Shown here: in pieces, positions 7,827 through 64,000 of the stretch
Layout of the letters: every line of letters starts with the position of its first letter
Position numbering within the stretch: position 1 is the first letter of the stretch
Assembly: GCF_947331815.1 (NCBI RefSeq)
Contig: NZ_OX373462.1
Span: 2,113,040-2,177,039 of the forward strand
Source: Cyanobacterium sp. uoEpiScrs1
GTDB lineage: Bacteria > Cyanobacteriota > Cyanobacteriia > Cyanobacteriales > Microcystaceae
DNA: 64,000 bases
Direction of reading: 5' to 3'
Translations under genes and position numbers: made by a program
The notes under the pieces: model-generated
What the model was told of the DNA's origin: nothing
The model's input: only the letters and a program-made list of their open reading frames with translations
Database searches by the model: none

Positions 7827-9406
<1,580 letters not shown>

Positions 9407-11782
9407 TTGACCCCTCTTTCTAGCAATGAGTTACGGAAAATTCATGCTTATTGGCGGGCTTGCAACTATCTTGCTGTTGGGATGATTTATTTACAGGATA
9501 ATCCTTTACTCAAAGATTCTTTGAAGGAAGAACATATTAAAAAACGTTTATTAGGACATTGGGGATCAAGTCCTGGCTTAAGCTTTATTTATATTCACCT
9601 CAATCGCCTGATTAAAAAATATGATTTAAATGTAATTTATATGGCTGGTCCTGGTCATGGTGCACCAGGGATACTCGGACCAGTGTATCTTGAAGGAACT
9701 TATTCGGAAATTTATCCTGATAAAAGCCGAGATGAGGAAGGAATGAAAAAGTTTTTCAAACAGTTTTCCTTTCCAGGCGGAATCGGTAGTCATTGCACTC
9801 CAGAAATTCCCGGATCAATTCATGAAGGAGGAGAACTAGGCTATTGTCTTTCCCATGCCTATGGTGCTGCCTTAGATAACCCGGATCTTATCGTTACTGC
9901 TGTAGTGGGAGATGGAGAAGCAGAGACTGGACCGTTAGCTGCTGCCTGGCATTCCAATAAATTTCTTAACCCAATCCGAGATGGTGCGGTACTACCTATA
10001 CTACACCTCAACGGCTATAAAATTGCTAATCCAACAATTTTTGCCCGTATTAGTCATGAAGAACTAGAATGTCTTTTTAAAGGGTATGGTTATAAACCTT
10101 ACTTTGTAGAAGGGTCTGATCCTCAAGTGATGCACCAGAAAATGGCCGCTATGCTAGAAACAGCAATCACAGAGATTAAACGAATCAAACAAGAAGCATA
10201 CTCTAGTGGGATTGCTAAACGCCCCATGTGGCCAATGATTATATTACGTTCTCCAAAGGGATGGACAGGTCCCAAAGAAGTAGATGGCAAAAAGACAGAA
10301 AATTTCTGGAGATCACATCAAGTTCCCCTATCAGGAATACAGAATAATTTTGCTCACTTAAAAGTTCTCGAGGACTGGATGAGAAGTTACAAACCTGAAG
10401 AACTTTTTGATGATAATGGCACACTAATTCCTGAATTACAGGAACTTGCCCCCTCGGGACATCGCCGCATTAGTTCTAATCCTCATGCTAATGGAGGAGT
10501 ACTTCGCAAAGACCTTGAAATGCCTGATTTCCGTGATTATAAGGTTAAAGTGACTAAACCTGGAGCAATAGAAGCTGGAAATACTGCCCTATTTGGTAAC
10601 TTCTTACGGGATATCATGGCCAATAACATGACTAATTTCCGTATTTTTGGTCCTGATGAAACTGCATCTAATCGTCTCAGTACCGTTTATGAAGTAAGTA
10701 AAAAAGTCTGGATGGCTAACATTCTCCCTGAAGATGCCGACGGCACCGAAATTGCTACTAATGGACGGGTAATGGAAATACTGAGTGAACATACCCTACA
10801 AGGATGGTTAGAAGGTTATTTATTAACAGGTCGTCACGGATTCTTCCACACTTACGAAGCGTTTGCTCACGTGGTTGACTCTATGTTTAACCAATACGCT
10901 AAATGGCTTGATATTTGTAAAAATAAAGTCTCTTGGCGGGCGTCAATTTCTTCTTTAAATATTATGCTATCTTCCACTGTTTGGCGGCAAGATCATAACG
11001 GGTTCAGCCACCAAGATCCCGGGTATGTTGATCTTGTTGCTAATAAGAGTGCAGACGTAGTCCGGGTATATTTTCCCCCTGATGCTAACTGTTTACTGTC
11101 TGTTGGAGATCATTGTTTGCGAAGTAAAAATTACGTTAACGTTATCGTTTCCGATAAACAAAAACACCTCCAATATCTAAGCATAGAGAAAGCCGTTGAA
11201 CATTGTACCAAGGGCATTGGCATTTGGGATTGGGCTAGTAATGATGATTGTGGCACAGAACTTGATATCCCTGATGTGGTTATGGCTTGTTGTGGTGACG
11301 TTGCTACAAAAGAAGCTTTAGCTGCTACTGCTATTTTACATGAAGAATTTCCTAAGTTAAAAGTACGGTTTGTTAATGTAGTTGATTTATTCAAACTACA
11401 ACCGAAACGGGAACACCCCCATGGACTTTCAGATTGGGATTTTGATAACTTGTTTACTAAAAATAAGCCTATTATTTTTAACTTTCACGGTTACCCTTGG
11501 TTAATTCATAAATTAACTTATCGTCGTACCAATCATGCCAACCTTCATGTTCGCGGTTATAAAGAAAAGGGGAATATTAATACTCCAATCGAATTAGCTA
11601 TAAATAATCAAATTGATCGCTTTAATTTAGTGATTGATGTCATTAACCGTGTTCCTAAACTAGGATCAGCTGCCGCTCATGTACATGAACGCATGAAGAA
11701 TGCTATCATAGAACATAGAGCTTATGCTTGCGAGAATGGTGTCGATAAACCGGAAATAACTAACTGGAAATGGACTTACTGA
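9407..11782 (+). CDS. xfp: Xylulose-5-phosphate/fructose-6-phosphate phosphoketolase
   Basis: A thiamine-diphosphate enzyme that cleaves xylulose-5-P or fructose-6-P to acetyl-P plus glyceraldehyde-3-P or erythrose-4-P. The 791-residue length is close to full for the family. Visible signatures include 'GHGAPG' (about 82-87), the TPP/Mg motif 'GDGEAETGP' (about 168-176), '[11 protein letters not shown]' (about 203) and '[10 protein letters not shown]' (about 535-545). No ATG is available: an in-frame stop lies at 9386-9388, leaving TTG at 9407 or CTG at 9401. AGAGGA at 9388-9393 spaces better to 9401 but also allows 9407. The protein starts shortly before the conserved 'HAYWRA', so a few N-terminal residues may be lost compared with free-living relatives. 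Confidence 0.93.
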
Positions 11783-57733: not shown

Positions 57734-57996
57734 GGCACACTATAGGATGGGTAATGCCACGTCGGGATCTTATTTTGAAGCGTATAAATCGTGACTCACC
57801 TTAATACCGATTTAGATTCTATCCAATTTAAAATCTAATGGGATGGTAAGTATTTTTAAGATTAACGTTTCATTTATTGAACTTAGTAAGGCATCTAGTG
57901 TCATGTCAAGGATAATCTGATTTGGATACAATACCTCTAAAAAAATATTAGGACAGAATTTTGTAGTTACTATGAATCCACTGTGGGTGGAAATTA
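57734..57996. other. Convergent spacer
   Basis: About 260 bases between the sigma factor gene and the DUF3769 gene. No strong hairpin and no gene is seen. Confidence 0.4.
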
Positions 57997-60531
57997 TTAA
58001 CGAGGAACTCCTTGAATAACTGGGCGAATCCCTGTTCCATCGAATGGACCTGGATTACCACTCCAATTAAAGTCGCTGATTCGTAAGCTGATAGAACCTA
58101 CTTGAAGACGGCTGTTATAACGTAAAAGAATATTATAAGTGCGGCGACTATATTCAAGAAATAAATCCGTGTTTATTTCATCATCAGTATCAATATTTAA
58201 GGCACTTTGAACCCCAAAACGTACAGGTCCATACAGCTGTTGGGTTAATGCCCAAGAAATAGTTTTAAGATCTGCAAAACGGTCAAATAAAAATGGAGAA
58301 GGATCTCCACGCAGCGCCTGACTAAAGGAGAGATTAAACCCTGTATAATCGAAAAAGGGGCGAGAAAAATTACCTAACTGTCCTGAAACTCCAATACTGC
58401 CCGAAATTGAAGGTTGAGAATCACCATTGCCATAGAGACTAGCCACTCCTGTTACACTAGTAGAAAGTTGAACAAAAGGTAGTACGGGGGTAGAAGTATA
58501 ACGCAGCCCTTCTCCAGAAGTTGGAGGTAAAGCTTTTCCTACCCACAACATAAAGGGCCGGCTTACTGATGCAGCCCCTTGAGTACGAAAGAGGGTAACA
58601 CGATTATTTTCTCTGGTTGAGGCAAGTAATTCTGGTTGATCCGTGTCTGCATTAACATTTTGTAAAGATGCTTGATAACTCAGCTGCAGTAACCCCTTTT
58701 CATCGAGAGGAATTTGAGGAGATACAAAAAGTAAACCCAAACTATCTCGGACAGTTTGAAAACCTAAGGATCCATTAAAAAGACGTTCACGATAATTATA
58801 TTCAAACCGTAAATCATTAACCATATTGAACAAAGGAACCTTCTGTTCAATATAGGTTTTTGTTCGGACATGTTCTTCAGTTCGGTCGTTGAAATCCAAA
58901 CTCGTTAGTGAAGTTCGGGAAAACAATTTAGTGTTCCCACTAAAGTTAGCCTCAACTCTATTGATGAATCCAAATGTTGGGGGACTGATAGCATCAATAT
59001 CATCTGTGTCTGCATCAAATAGATCAGTGTTGGGATTATCTGTAGTAATACTGTCGGGAAATAATCCTTTTTGAATATAGTATTGGGGCTTAAATTCCCA
59101 ACTTACTGTGTCATTATCGACCAGATTAAATCCCCGTTGTACATATAATCCTCCACGATCACGGTCATCATAACCGAAAGAAATTACTCCAGGTTGGCGA
59201 TCACGCCGGTCTAAAATCAACCTATCTTGAGTAGGAAAAGAATTTGTTTGGTCAAGCACTACTCGTGAGTTAGTCAATTTTACTTCATCTACCAATGGGG
59301 CAATGTTGCGAAATGTTGCTGTTTCTGCTCGAATTTCTAATTCGGGGGGGGAGAAGGGATCATTAGTTAGACGAGCATTTGTGGCACTCCATCCGTCTCC
59401 ATCAAATTCCATCCGTTCGGCCTGAAAGCGGATGCGATTTATTTGTCCTCCCTTGGACGGTACTTGGGTCGCTGGTAAATTAGGAACATCAGTTCCTAGT
59501 CCTATGGACTCTTTTCCAAAATCAAAAGAAGTGCCGAAACGAAACCCTTCAGTAGTAGTAATTCGTTGTAGAGGTTGACTGACTGCTAGGCGTTCATTTA
59601 ATGTTTGGTTAGGAATATAATCATTAGTAGGATCATTAGGTAATCCTGGAGAAAAGTCTTTTCCTGTTGTAGGTTGATAAATCTCCCCATTTGCGCTGAA
59701 AACCACCCCTTGATCTTGCACAAAATAATACTCAAACTTTTCTCCTCGTAGGGTTTGCTCACCTCGTTCAAGTACAACTTCTCCCTCGGCGACAACAAAT
59801 TGATCGGGTAGGTTAACACGTAAGTGCTTTGCCAATAAGACCCCATTAGCAAAGCGCATTACCACATTGCCCTCAGCATAGACTACCTTCTGTTTAGAAT
59901 CATATTCCTGCCTATCAGCAATCAATTCCACTATCCTTATTGCTTCTTCTGGGGGTGAGGCGTTATCTGACCGGGGTAAGGGTTGAGAAATAATCTCTAA
60001 TGTTTGTTGATTAACAGAAGTTTTTTGTCCTTTTGCTGTAGAAGAAGTTAAGATTTCAAATTCTCGTATTGGTCCCCCTCGTTTACGGGTAATAAGACGA
60101 TGGACTGTATTTGAGAGGCTATCATAACTTTGATTTGGACTAAAGCTCAAGTTAGGAACAGCATTAACTACTGTTGATGTAACTTTTGTTGAAGACAGTT
60201 GACCAACGGAAATCGGCTTTCCTAATACCTCGGCATTATCGTCTTTAGGTAAAGAATTAGAGGGTAAAAACTTAGTGGGAATTTCTTTTGGGTCAGATAG
60301 ATAAAATTCAATAACTCCAAGAGGTTTTGCTACTGGAATTTTTCTAGAGGACTCCAACGGTGGGGGATTAAGCACCGAAATTGGTATCTCAGAAATAAGG
60401 AAGGAGCGTTTCCCAAGGAGGGTGTGAGCGGACAATTCTTCAGTCAGAATTTCCATGTGATTGCCTTGGGGGTCAAGGGCTATAGGTTGAATTAGCGCGG
60501 GCAGATTAGGTGGCGGGACGAATGGGGGCAT
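57997..60531 (-). CDS. DUF3769 outer-membrane protein, cyanobacterial LptD-like LPS assembly factor
   Basis: An 844-residue protein. A proline-rich, low-complexity N-terminus is followed by an OstA/LptA-like beta-jellyroll at about 205-285 ('VVYAEGNVVMRFANGVLL', 'GEVVLERGEQTLRGEKFEYY'). The C-terminal ~450 residues have alternating beta-strand character, as in the LptD barrel. Cyanobacterial LptD homologues carry this DUF3769 domain. No classic signal peptide is visible at the chosen start (ATG 60531), so the N-terminus may be truncated or processed unusually. It would insert LPS into the outer leaflet. The 5' leader contains a GC-rich hairpin at 60600-60619. Confidence 0.85.
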   Translation of the reverse strand: MPPFVPPPNLPALIQPIALDPQGNHMEILTEELSAHTLLGKRSFLISEIPISVLNPPPLESSRKIPVAKPLGVIEFYLSDPKEIPTKFLPSNSLPKDDNAEVLGKPISVGQLSSTKVTSTVVNAVPNLSFSPNQSYDSLSNTVHRLITRKRGGPIREFEILTSSTAKGQKTSVNQQTLEIISQPLPRSDNASPPEEAIRIVELIADRQEYDSKQKVVYAEGNVVMRFANGVLLAKHLRVNLPDQFVVAEGEVVLERGEQTLRGEKFEYYFVQDQGVVFSANGEIYQPTTGKDFSPGLPNDPTNDYIPNQTLNERLAVSQPLQRITTTEGFRFGTSFDFGKESIGLGTDVPNLPATQVPSKGGQINRIRFQAERMEFDGDGWSATNARLTNDPFSPPELEIRAETATFRNIAPLVDEVKLTNSRVVLDQTNSFPTQDRLILDRRDRQPGVISFGYDDRDRGGLYVQRGFNLVDNDTVSWEFKPQYYIQKGLFPDSITTDNPNTDLFDADTDDIDAISPPTFGFINRVEANFSGNTKLFSRTSLTSLDFNDRTEEHVRTKTYIEQKVPLFNMVNDLRFEYNYRERLFNGSLGFQTVRDSLGLLFVSPQIPLDEKGLLQLSYQASLQNVNADTDQPELLASTRENNRVTLFRTQGAASVSRPFMLWVGKALPPTSGEGLRYTSTPVLPFVQLSTSVTGVASLYGNGDSQPSISGSIGVSGQLGNFSRPFFDYTGFNLSFSQALRGDPSPFLFDRFADLKTISWALTQQLYGPVRFGVQSALNIDTDDEINTDLFLEYSRRTYNILLRYNSRLQVGSISLRISDFNWSGNPGPFDGTGIRPVIQGVPR

Positions 60532-60554
60532 CTTTTCGATAAAATCAGGCTTAA

Positions 60555-60641
60555 AGGGTTAATTGCTACCTGCAGCGTGACTCAGCAGAAGAACGTTCTG
60601 GACGAGGTAAATCTCGTCCCTATCGTCTTAATCACCTAAGT
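60555..60641. repeat. GC-rich hairpin element upstream of DUF3769
   Basis: A block far richer in G+C than its surroundings. It contains the perfect 7-bp stem GGACGAG/CTCGTCC (60600-60606 and 60613-60619) with a 6-nt loop. On the plus strand 29 codons are open between stops (60552 and 60642), ending '...GRGKSRPYRLNHLS'. It may be a dispersed cyanobacterial hairpin repeat, a structured leader of the DUF3769 mRNA, or a gene-tail relic. Confidence 0.45.
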
Positions 60642-60679
60642 TAACACAGTCAAATTATGCTTACTCAAAATCTGTCGGT

Positions 60680-60778
60680 CTATGGTCTACGAGTTGGGTC
60701 ACTCGATAGAAAACCGAAGACAAATAGAGAAATGAATAAAGCAACGACGATATAAACTGCAATTTTTATGGTTAGCAT
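60680..60778 (-). CDS. psbI: Photosystem II reaction centre protein I, shortened tail
   Basis: A 32-residue frame whose first ~28 residues match cyanobacterial PsbI closely: '[19 protein letters not shown]' is the single membrane helix, then '[11 protein letters not shown]'. PsbI normally has about 38 residues and ends with a charged tail of the NPGRKD(L/F)E type; here a TAG stop follows 'RP'. AGGAG lies 11 bases before the ATG (complement of 60790-60794). PsbI is a small thylakoid subunit bound to D1 that helps assemble photosystem II. If the organism has lost photosystem II, as resembling endosymbionts have, this is a relic or has been kept for another reason. No other photosystem gene lies in the window. 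Confidence 0.85.
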
Positions 60779-61783
60779 CTTATTTTAATCTCCTGATTAA
60801 AATGGACTCCAGTTTTCAAATAAACGTTTCATCTTGCTAACTTTAGCTTATTTTAGTATTGAGTTGGAAAGAAATGGTCAGAAGACAACAGACTTATTGA
60901 AGTATGCCGTAATATAGCGATAAGATGATCTTAATTTAACTAAAATAATTGGCCGTGTACAAAACAGATAACTATTTTTTAGCTTGAATCTATTTTTATT
61001 TATAAGGATTTGAGTGTTAGTATTTATGACTAAAATACTTAAGTTAGTTTTGACTCTAATCTTATAACAAATATTATTACTATTAGTTTTATATTTTACA
61101 CTTTAGGTTTACATTTAAAATTGTAGTGTATCAACTCGAGTTATCTAAACCATGTAAGTATTTTGATATTAATATCTGATTTTATAGACTTTGAAATCAT
61201 AGTGTATAGTTAATCTTTAATACATTATTTTGCCGACAACTATATTAGTTCTTATATAAAAATATATTTTTTATGTTTTTGAACACAACTTAAGTTTCGT
61301 ATCATTAAATGATTTAATACAAATACTGCTTTTAAAAAAAATCACAATTATTGTTAGTGTTTTAAGTTAACTATTAGTACTCTTTATATCAAAATTAATT
61401 TTAGTTACTCTTGATTTTTATGTTGGAAATCTATTTTTTGATACTCAACGATATTATTTACTAATAAAATATTTATTTATGGTATAGTTTACTATCTTTT
61501 GGTTTACTGAATATTGAGTTAAGCATTGATTTCCGAAAATTAATATAAATATTAATTTTCTTAACTTATATGTATCTTGGGATAAGGATTATTTTGTTTA
61601 GTTTAACTTTGTCTAAAACAAATATACTTATCATCCTACGTATTGGAAATAAATAAAATTAGCTCAATAACTTATTTCTTTTAAAAGAAAGAGATAAACT
61701 AGAATACTATTTAGTTAGTTTACTCTCTCAAAATTTTTATGTAATCCTACGCTCAGTCCATAAGATACGCATATGTTTTTTTC

Positions 61784-61918
61784 TTAACTAAAGTGCAGTT
61801 TAACTCCCTGAAACCGTTCCTGATTTTTTATGATTTGGTAAAGGGTATTGTTAATCTTCCCTGCATCAGAAAGATAATAAAGATAAGATTGCAGTAAAAT
61901 AATACGGTTTTTCTTAAG
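61784..61918 (-). pseudogene. C-terminal relic of an unidentified gene
   Basis: An open stretch of 44 codons ending at a TAA, without any ATG, GTG or TTG start. It contains 'NRIILLQSYLYYLSDAGKI' and 'IIKNQERFQGVKLHFS', which look like the natural C-terminus of a protein. Upstream the frame is closed by a stop, and neighbouring frames give no clear continuation. The family is not recognised. A chance open frame of this length is possible. Confidence 0.35.
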
Positions 61919-62044
61919 TTAATTTATTTATATGTAAACGCGATTTAGGGCAATTAAATTACTTTTAGTATCAAAAATTTAGCAGTTCACCAGCTTTGAG
62001 GTATTCTGTTGATATAATTTATACTACCTAAAAATATATATCTA

Positions 62045-62472
62045 TTAAACGTTTTTTAGTCCATAATCAATTTTATTCCAAACGATTGTTAAACTAATGT
62101 AGACTGCATTGCCGGTAAAAAATACCGAATCATGATTTTCAACAACAATATGATTTTTATAGGTATCCGCATCTCTATAAGGTAGTTTTCAAGTACGTAG
62201 TAGGAGAATAATAGAGCAAATAACCATCTAAACGATAAGACATTTTATCTACCAAGTATAGGGATAAAACCTCTGTATACGATATAAGAGTATAAATTTG
62301 GTTCAGTTCTAACTCCGTGTTCCGTCTAGAATCAATGTCTTTTACGGTCAAACAAAACATTTCCTGCCTCTTCAAAAGAAGATTAGCCGACACGTCATAA
62401 ACGGTGAAAATATTCTCCTCGAACTATTTTTTTGAAGTAGGGCTCTTCTACATAGCGTTTCTTATTGTAAAA
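62045..62472 (-). pseudogene. Frameshifted pseudogene, family unknown
   Basis: Three consecutive protein-like segments on the minus strand occupy three different frames with almost no gap. They are 62395-62472 ('KKRYVEEPYFKKIVRGEYF'), 62175-62393 ('MFCLTVKDID', 'LYLVDKMSYRLDGYLLYY') and 62045-62188 ('DADTYKNHIVVENHDSVFF'). This is the pattern of one gene of at least 140 codons broken by at least two frameshifts. No start codon is preserved. I cannot identify the parent family. Confidence 0.55.
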
Positions 62473-62517
62473 CTAACTTAAGATAACATTATTTTTCTAG
62501 AAACCACTCCGCATTGG

Positions 62518-62578
62518 CGATAAATACTATCATCTGGCTAACTTTCGAAAAAAGTTAGCCAGATGATAGTATTTATCG
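62518..62578. repeat. Perfect 28-bp inverted repeat, 5-nt loop
   Basis: Arms 62518-62545 and 62551-62578 are perfectly complementary over 28 bases around the loop CGAAA. It lies about 45 bases upstream of the frameshifted pseudogene and nearly 0.9 kb from acnB. No intact gene ends here, so it is not an obvious terminator of anything present now. Confidence 0.9.
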
Positions 62579-63362
62579 TTGTGCAATGAAATAATGACAT
62601 AATCACAGGTTAATTGATGAATATTCTCTGTCATCCATGGAACAATAACATAACTTATGTTACGATGCCTGAAAGCGCATATAGGTAAATGAATCAAATC
62701 AATTGTAATAAGTACCGTTTAAAAAGCAATCAACAAACGAGATACTACGGCAACTAATTAACCGCTTAGAGAAGAGTTTATTGCATTCATTGCTAAGTTA
62801 TTTTGTAGGCTAATTTTTTATTGTACTCTGTTAGGTTGCTTTTCTTTAGCTTATACTTAGTTACTTATTCATAACTTATAAGTTAAGTGCTTATTTAACA
62901 GATGTTAATAACAAAGAACTAAAGCAGTATTTGAGATATTTTATCCTTAATCAATTAAGTGATTATGTTCTTAATATCTATCACCTAATAAGTGTGTTTT
63001 TTTACTTACAAAACGCACTTTTGCTATACTTGTAGCTGCAATTTTGTGTTTCAATAAATAAATTTTAAATTAGGTTAAATTTAACATGTCGCAAAACTAA
63101 TTTTTGAATTTCTATATTTTTATTTCAACAACATATACCTAATAAATCGAAGTACTGTATATTATTTCAATTTTATGGAAATAATATCTAGATTTTTAAT
63201 TGGACAATATTGAGTCTAAACTTAACAACTGGGTAGTAAACCGTAAAATCTTAATTAAAAACAAAGTGAACTAATTAAGTTCTAGTAATCATCAAAGATA
63301 TAGATTAATTTTATAAAATTCTCAATAAAAATATCTATATTACAACAGATTAAAATTAATAC

Positions 63363-63416
63363 TCTTAAGGACAATACCCTTAGAATAGAATTGATATTCT
63401 TAAAAAGAATACCCTT
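63363..63416 (+). promoter_or_regulatory. Direct repeats upstream of acnB
   Basis: Two 19-bp copies of TCTTAArrAsAATACCCTT (63363-63381 and 63398-63416) differ at three positions and are spaced 35 bp apart. They end 50 bases before the acnB start. The spacing is not a whole number of 10.5-bp turns, but close to three and a third. They could bind a regulator or be a small duplication. Confidence 0.45.
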
Positions 63417-63466
63417 TACCGTTCCAATCGAAAATCTAAAAATTTCTACTATAGGAGAAAAACTAA

Positions 63467-64000
63467 ATGTTAGAAAGTTATTATAAACACAAAGAAGAAC
63501 GTGCAAAACTTGGAATTCCTCCCTTACCCTTAACAGCTAAACAGACTTCACAACTATGTAAATTTTTAAAAAATCCCCCCAAAGAACTTAGAGAAGAACT
63601 TTTGATGTTACTACGAGATAGAGTTCCCTCTGGCGTAGATGAAGCAGCTTATGTTAAAGCAGGATTTCTAACGGGGATAGCTAAAGGTGAAATAACCTGT
63701 CCTATAATCTCCCCTCAAGAGGCAGTGGACTTATTAGGAACTATGATAGGAGGCTATAATGTACGTTCATTAGTTGAACTACTCAAATTTCCTAATAAGG
63801 ACTTAGCATCAGCAGCAGTTACTGCATTAAGTAAAACTATCTTAGTTTTCGATGCATTTAATGAAGTCTTGGAATGTTCGGAAACTAACTCTTATGCCAA
63901 ACAGGTTATCGAGGCTTGGTCTAATGCTTCCTGGTTTATAAATAAACCTAAAGTCCCTGAGAACATTACTGTCACTGTCTTTAAAGTTTGTGGAGAAACC
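63467..64000 (+). CDS. acnB: Aconitate hydratase B, 5' part (runs off the window)
   Basis: The first 178 codons of aconitase B, which interconverts citrate and isocitrate using a [4Fe-4S] cluster. The start 'MLESYYKHKEERAKLGIPPLPL' is the AcnB N-terminus, followed by the HEAT-like helical domain ('LLRDRVPSGVDEAAYVKAGFL', 'LGTMIGGYNVRSLVELLKF'). AGGAGA lies 9-14 bases before the ATG. The cluster cysteines and active site lie beyond the window. The frame is intact as far as visible. It implies that at least the oxidative branch of the TCA cycle to 2-oxoglutarate is kept, which nitrogen assimilation needs. Confidence 0.93.
   Translation, partial: MLESYYKHKEERAKLGIPPLPLTAKQTSQLCKFLKNPPKELREELLMLLRDRVPSGVDEAAYVKAGFLTGIAKGEITCPIISPQEAVDLLGTMIGGYNVRSLVELLKFPNKDLASAAVTALSKTILVFDAFNEVLECSETNSYAKQVIEAWSNASWFINKPKVPENITVTVFKVCGET

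Follow-up and report, generated by a model that had tools for sequence, protein, structure and literature searches.

A decaying psbI that probably persists as part of the promoter and leader of a DUF3769 gene in a diatom endosymbiont

The psbI gene of the non-photosynthetic, nitrogen-fixing endosymbiont described here is probably a slowly decaying pseudogene, left behind when photosystem II was lost and kept as part of the promoter and leader of the DUF3769 gene that follows it. A decaying psbI is an ordinary fate; the proposed reason for its survival and the candidate leader RNA between the two genes are new. After photosystem II was lost, psbI would have drifted as a pseudogene, base by base, while a single transcript starting upstream of it would feed DUF3769, and the spacer, as leader RNA, would determine how stable the DUF3769 mRNA is, or how it is processed or translated. 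Block deletions of psbI would be selected against: psbI would persist because it lies physically within the promoter and leader of the downstream gene, and large deletions would be disfavoured because promoter or leader would go too. If this is true, which photosystem gene is lost last in an organelle-like reduction is set by gene order and not by gene function.

The window (the whole 64,000-nucleotide stretch that was analysed) carries psbI on its minus strand as a frame of 32 codons closed by TAG (Table 1). The ORF matches the Pfam family PsbI (PF02532; E = 2.6e-18, 66.1 bits, cut-off 27), the one other Pfam family among the matches listed being Tom5 (E = 0.24), and in a PDB search all 33 distinct sequences at E ≤ 1 among the matches listed are PsbI chains. 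All 32 residues align gap-free with PsbI of cyanobacterial photosystem II (PDB 6wj6 chain I), and start and helix are kept; the window copy differs from that protein in its frameshifted tail, its relaxed dN/dS and the lack of any partner gene found. An AGGAG motif lies 11 nt 5′ of the ATG and is found in 7 of 7 aligned genomes. The preliminary description of this DNA had proposed a PsbI-like gene with a good ribosome-binding site, and both proposals are borne out; the homology is real. With the NCBIfam PsbI equivalog (NF002735) the ORF scores 69.5, narrowly below the cut-off of 73, which may be the reason why automatic annotation would overlook it.

Table 1. Coordinates, within the window, of psbI, the DUF3769 gene and the elements between and before them
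Feature	Position	Strand	Basis
psbI upstream block (−85 to −1), promoter-like/5′ UTR region with AGGAG ribosome-binding site	60779–60863	−	Aligns with 3 of 3 sister symbionts and G038; putative promoter function
psbI, 32 codons + TAG, broken copy	60680–60778	−	ORF translation, Pfam, PDB; one-base insertion after codon 30 (about 60686–60688) by alignment
Remnant of ancestral psbI tail and TAA stop, out of frame	60661–60679	−	GATTTTGAGTAA at 60661–60672, opposite the DFE-stop of six relatives in the alignment
Spacer, candidate leader RNA of the DUF3769 gene	60532–60660	−	Conservation among symbionts; covariance model R1 match at 60529–60653
Predicted hairpin 1 (GGGACGAG / CTCGTCC)	60600–60620	−	3 of 8 pairs changed on both sides; present in the single-sequence folds of 18 of 20 members
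Predicted hairpin 2, ending ~12 nt before the DUF3769 start	60544–60581	−	8 of 10 pairs invariant in 13 sequences
Intact DUF3769 gene (844 aa) for an LptD/OstA-like outer-membrane protein	57997–60531	−	Pfam DUF3769 595.7 bits (cut-off 20.5); LptD_N 21.4 bits, barely above its cut-off (20.4)

The genome to which the window belongs is a single contig of 2,483,960 bases (99.58% complete). Profile searches of this genome gave no match to PF00124 (psbA/D), PF00421 (psbB/C) or PF00283 (psbE/F), nor to PsbN, Ycf48, PsbK or PsaA/B, and each of these seven photosystem family searches does give matches in all three free-living members of the genus. A reduced cyanobacterial genome without photosystem II, as had been supposed from the window, is thus what the PF00124 and PF00421 searches indicate: with no match to either, the intact psbA–psbD that would have marked psbI as a working photosystem II subunit gene are absent. 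The sugar-oxidising genes that had also been pointed out, a type I GAPDH (window 7827–8876) and a phosphoketolase (9407–11782), are intact by NCBIfam. Three sister symbionts belong to the same genus, those of Epithemia turgida (G037, NZ_AP012549.1), Rhopalodia gibberula (G040, NZ_AP018341.1) and E. clementina (G041, NZ_CP123991.1); in these the core photosystem families returned nothing or fragments, mostly stop-bearing, the stop-free ones being 156 bases in G037 (PF00124) and 153 bases in G040 (PsaA/B). Remnants of psaA/psaB, most of them with stops, lie at G041:C1:2151964–2153483 and G040:C1:2492356–2493001; the window genome has none.

Among the 50 genomes of the family, psbI was found in 47 and is missing from G002, G003 and G006. 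The last is an assembly of ~430 contigs in which a DUF3769 match is likewise absent. G002 (1,491,611 bases) and G003 (1,443,806 bases), from a genus other than the window's, we take to be UCYN-A. PMC11070190 describes UCYN-A as lacking photosystem II.

Two of the four symbiont copies of psbI are broken, and in different ways. Aligned with the three sister symbionts and three free-living genomes, the window copy shows a single inserted base after codon 30, so that its tail after DPTR becomes RP-stop and the conserved C-terminal tail is lost; the ancestral end of the gene, GAT TTT GAG TAA (DFE-stop), is still readable at 60661–60672. The TAG by which the tail had been said to be cut is indeed there, but its cause is this one-base insertion, and the old stop remains behind it. 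The copy in the E. turgida symbiont has a TAA at codon 28. Each of these is a disabling lesion of the kind that defines a pseudogene, and a tail that is nearly invariant in the translated free-living relatives has been lost in these two symbionts through separate events. The copies of the R. gibberula and E. clementina symbionts have 38 open codons each, and the start and helix (codons 1–27) are open in all four symbionts. As in the window, psbI in the three sisters stands before DUF3769, with the same spacer between the genes. No functional photosystem gene was found in the R. gibberula symbiont, according to PMC5638926, although 38 codons of its psbI are open. On the present reading, a photosynthesis ORF that looks intact in a symbiont without photosynthesis should not be taken as a sign that its function has been kept.

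Protein-level selection on psbI is relaxed in the symbionts. Compared across related strains, as the preliminary description had proposed, dN/dS rises from 0.073–0.079 in free-living lineages to 0.41–0.58 in symbionts (p = 0.0024–0.0047; codon model, four settings). This test used a tree of 17 genomes and codons 1–30, with branch lengths borrowed from DUF3769; the stop in G037 was coded as missing data and the shifted tail omitted, a conservative choice. The symbiont values are indistinguishable from 1 (p = 0.11–0.39), with point estimates below 1, and do not show the strong purifying selection of a working photosystem II gene. For DUF3769, dN/dS is 0.165–0.166 in free-living lineages and 0.134–0.138 in symbionts, a shift, if any, towards slightly tighter constraint (p = 0.045; fits halted at 150 iterations). 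Changes in psbI at codon positions 1, 2 and 3 number 5, 2 and 5 in symbionts and 28, 7 and 107 elsewhere (Fisher p = 0.019); since p rises to 0.13 once the two that create the E. turgida stop are taken out of the 12 symbiont changes, this test is not relied on. A 'very recent relic', one of the two readings offered at the outset, is thus half right: a relic fits, whereas 'very recent' fits poorly with two different breaks in two of four symbionts, with the 5.7–7.4-fold rise in dN/dS across the symbiont clade and with psbA–psbD matches that are absent or in fragments in all four.

For all this relaxation, the DNA of the region evolves slowly. Among the four symbionts, the block that runs from −85 up to the DUF3769 start evolves 2–5 times slower than fourfold sites: 21 changes fall in 87 columns at −85 to −1, 12 in 90 in psbI codons 1–30 and 14 in 131 in the spacer, as compared with 171 in 331 at fourfold DUF3769 sites and 159 in 260 far upstream, a figure perhaps inflated by the poor alignment of the window there. 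The spacers of G037 and G040 differ at 0 of 130 positions, and that of the window, the most divergent copy, differs from each sister at 12–14 of 129. Further upstream, window 60864–64000 is a stretch of ~3 kb without a convincing gene, and a tblastn search (E ≤ 1e-3) with the genes that lie near psbI in the nearest free-living genome, G038, found no trace of them in window 60801–64000. In a consensus scan for sigma-70-type promoters, none of the 8 promoter-like sites (5.1 expected) fell in the psbI upstream block, the place where a promoter would be expected, and a terminator scan found no terminator-like site. In Synechococcus elongatus UTEX 2973, psbI has an abundant transcript start according to PMC6091082, whose consulted sections do not mention DUF3769.

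Survival of psbI by chance, as a short gene that has not yet been hit or deleted, is rather unlikely. Few stops are expected in 38 codons, and 13.8% of neutral simulations keep codons 1–27 open in all four symbionts; but other psb genes did not fare in this way, psbE, psbF and psbN being found in none of the four and psbK in one, as a stop-bearing fragment. The contrast with psbI (4 of 4 versus 1 of 16 for these four genes; Fisher p = 0.001, lineages not independent) means that shortness alone does not keep psb genes. Chance would also have to account for 10 changes in codons 1–27 where 41.8 are expected at the fourfold DUF3769 rate (Poisson p = 4e-9), and for a slow zone that covers non-coding DNA on both sides of psbI. 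That psbI is a normal, functioning photosystem II gene whose tail simply varies, its fellow genes having been missed, is hardly credible: the ORF does exceed the Pfam PsbI cut-off, but the genome is the near-complete single contig described above, and seven family searches that succeed in 3 of 3 free-living genomes found nothing in it.

The slow rate could itself reflect selection on a residual peptide, if the helix (residues 1–27) were still made for a non-photosynthetic membrane role and only the tail had been dispensed with. This we consider unlikely. In its favour are the open start and codons 1–27 in all four symbionts, two of which retain 38 open codons; a hydropathy of residues 6–24 of 2.82–2.90 in symbionts, against 2.79 and 2.93 in two free-living relatives; the dN/dS point estimates below 1; and the fact that only 1.0% of simulations at the neutral fourfold rate keep the helix open in all four with similar hydropathy. 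However, at the slow rate actually observed, the helix survives in 45% of simulations in the absence of any protein selection, so its survival is not independent evidence. Against such a role stand dN/dS values indistinguishable from 1, the loss of a near-invariant tail by separate lesions, the absence of any photosystem partner gene found, and the complete loss of psbI in G002 and G003. The suggestion in the preliminary description that psbI is 'kept for another purpose' is unsupported for the protein. The slow psbI body is nevertheless the weakest step in the case for retention within the DUF3769 promoter and leader, because the same slowness is predicted both by constraint on the RNA and by a peptide that still has some role.

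Retention of psbI with its neighbour has a counterpart in gene order well beyond the symbionts. A pattern scan placed a same-strand psbI 5′ of DUF3769 in 42 of 50 DUF3769 loci, including those of Nostoc, Okeania, Trichodesmium and a Thermosynechococcaceae genome; of the eight loci without psbI, three have ≤2 bases of upstream sequence, one has 1136 and four have >2000. With a separate pattern psbI was found in 40 of 41 loci (the one missed, G042, has a psbI by family search), and in 38 of these 40 an ORF of at least 120 aa starts ≤800 nt from the psbI start; the exceptions are G008 and G032, the latter a locus that ends there. Contig JAAUTE010000007.1 (L131), titled as a Chloroflexaceae MAG, also has psbI and DUF3769 side by side and is thus probably a mis-binned cyanobacterial contig. 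If the proposed reading is right, this widespread arrangement points to a connection of photosystem genes with outer-membrane genes that can be put to the test. Searches of the open-licence literature on DUF3769, on psbI with LptD or OstA and on psbI mutants gave no title on a psbI–DUF3769 unit among the matches listed, and a search on psbI with endosymbiont and Epithemia found no paper; PMC5126843, in the part seen, treats psbI only as a photosystem gene and names UCYN-A only in reference titles.

The conservation of the spacer is linked to the DUF3769 gene, which makes it a candidate leader RNA of that gene. A covariance model (R1), for which the window spacer was among the source sequences, gave 26 matches in 24 of the 50 family genomes, 13 of which (including the window genome, G002 and G003) had supplied the model; with the stricter filters used, the other 26 of the 50 gave none. 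All but one of the matches (25 of 26) sit either in the psbI–DUF3769 interval or immediately 5′ of DUF3769, the other being weak (E = 0.008) and elsewhere. G002 and G003 have lost psbI together with the region upstream of it, and a related spacer still directly precedes DUF3769. This relationship was recovered independently of the model, the alignment of the G002 and G003 spacers scoring above all 500 shuffles in 10 of 10 pairs; identity reaches, for example, 92/110 to G048, with only 21/25 in a local match to G037 and G038. The UCYN-A-like spacers thus resemble that of the window in position, and differ in that psbI is gone and hairpin 1 is not predicted. From the loss of everything upstream of the spacer in these genomes, a promoter inside the spacer may exist, and it would weaken the argument for a shared psbI–DUF3769 transcript.

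Covariation in the spacer was judged on an alignment of 13 of 20 sequences (A1), from which near duplicates (G040, G041, G014, G015 and G010), G036 (loop insertion) and G049 (divergent) were left out. Hairpin 2 provides no covariation evidence, since 8 of its 10 pairs do not vary. Out of 500 shuffles, none reached the observed number of two-sided-change cells (5) and 24 the number of pairs with such a change; 62 reached the percentage paired, 72 the covariation score and 474 the count of further pair types. Covariation is weak and the controls are mixed; a structured spacer RNA is no more than plausible. Folds of single sequences gave z-scores from 0.3 to −6.7, with G002 and G003 forming another stem in place of hairpin 1, and the window's 327-nt block has a better fold than any of 100 shuffles (z = −3.18).

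Leader and intercistronic RNA elements at the 5′ side of bacterial genes are a known class, and the spacer likewise has conserved predicted hairpins between cistrons, close to a start codon; it differs from members of that class in that its covariation is weak and it has no Rfam match at E ≤ 10 (window 57900–61500). At the Rfam gathering threshold, a search of seven sources returned one tRNA. It is possible, although we lean against it, that the spacer represents a new cis-regulatory RNA family which couples a gene of photosystem II with one for outer-membrane assembly and which, in two lineages of endosymbionts, has lasted longer than photosystem II itself: in the diatom symbionts the former psbI would be part of the leader, and in the UCYN-A-like genomes the leader alone would be left.

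Some distant family members (L056 in G005, L057 in G004 and L020 in G045) have a hairpin of different sequence after psbI, followed by a T run and resembling an intrinsic terminator; this T run is absent in the closer relatives of the window. Insertions in the spacers of free-living G015 and G017 sit between psbI and the leader, and those of G039 (L055; both hairpins) and G036 (L034; hairpin 2) fall in predicted hairpin loops, as if the stems had been kept.
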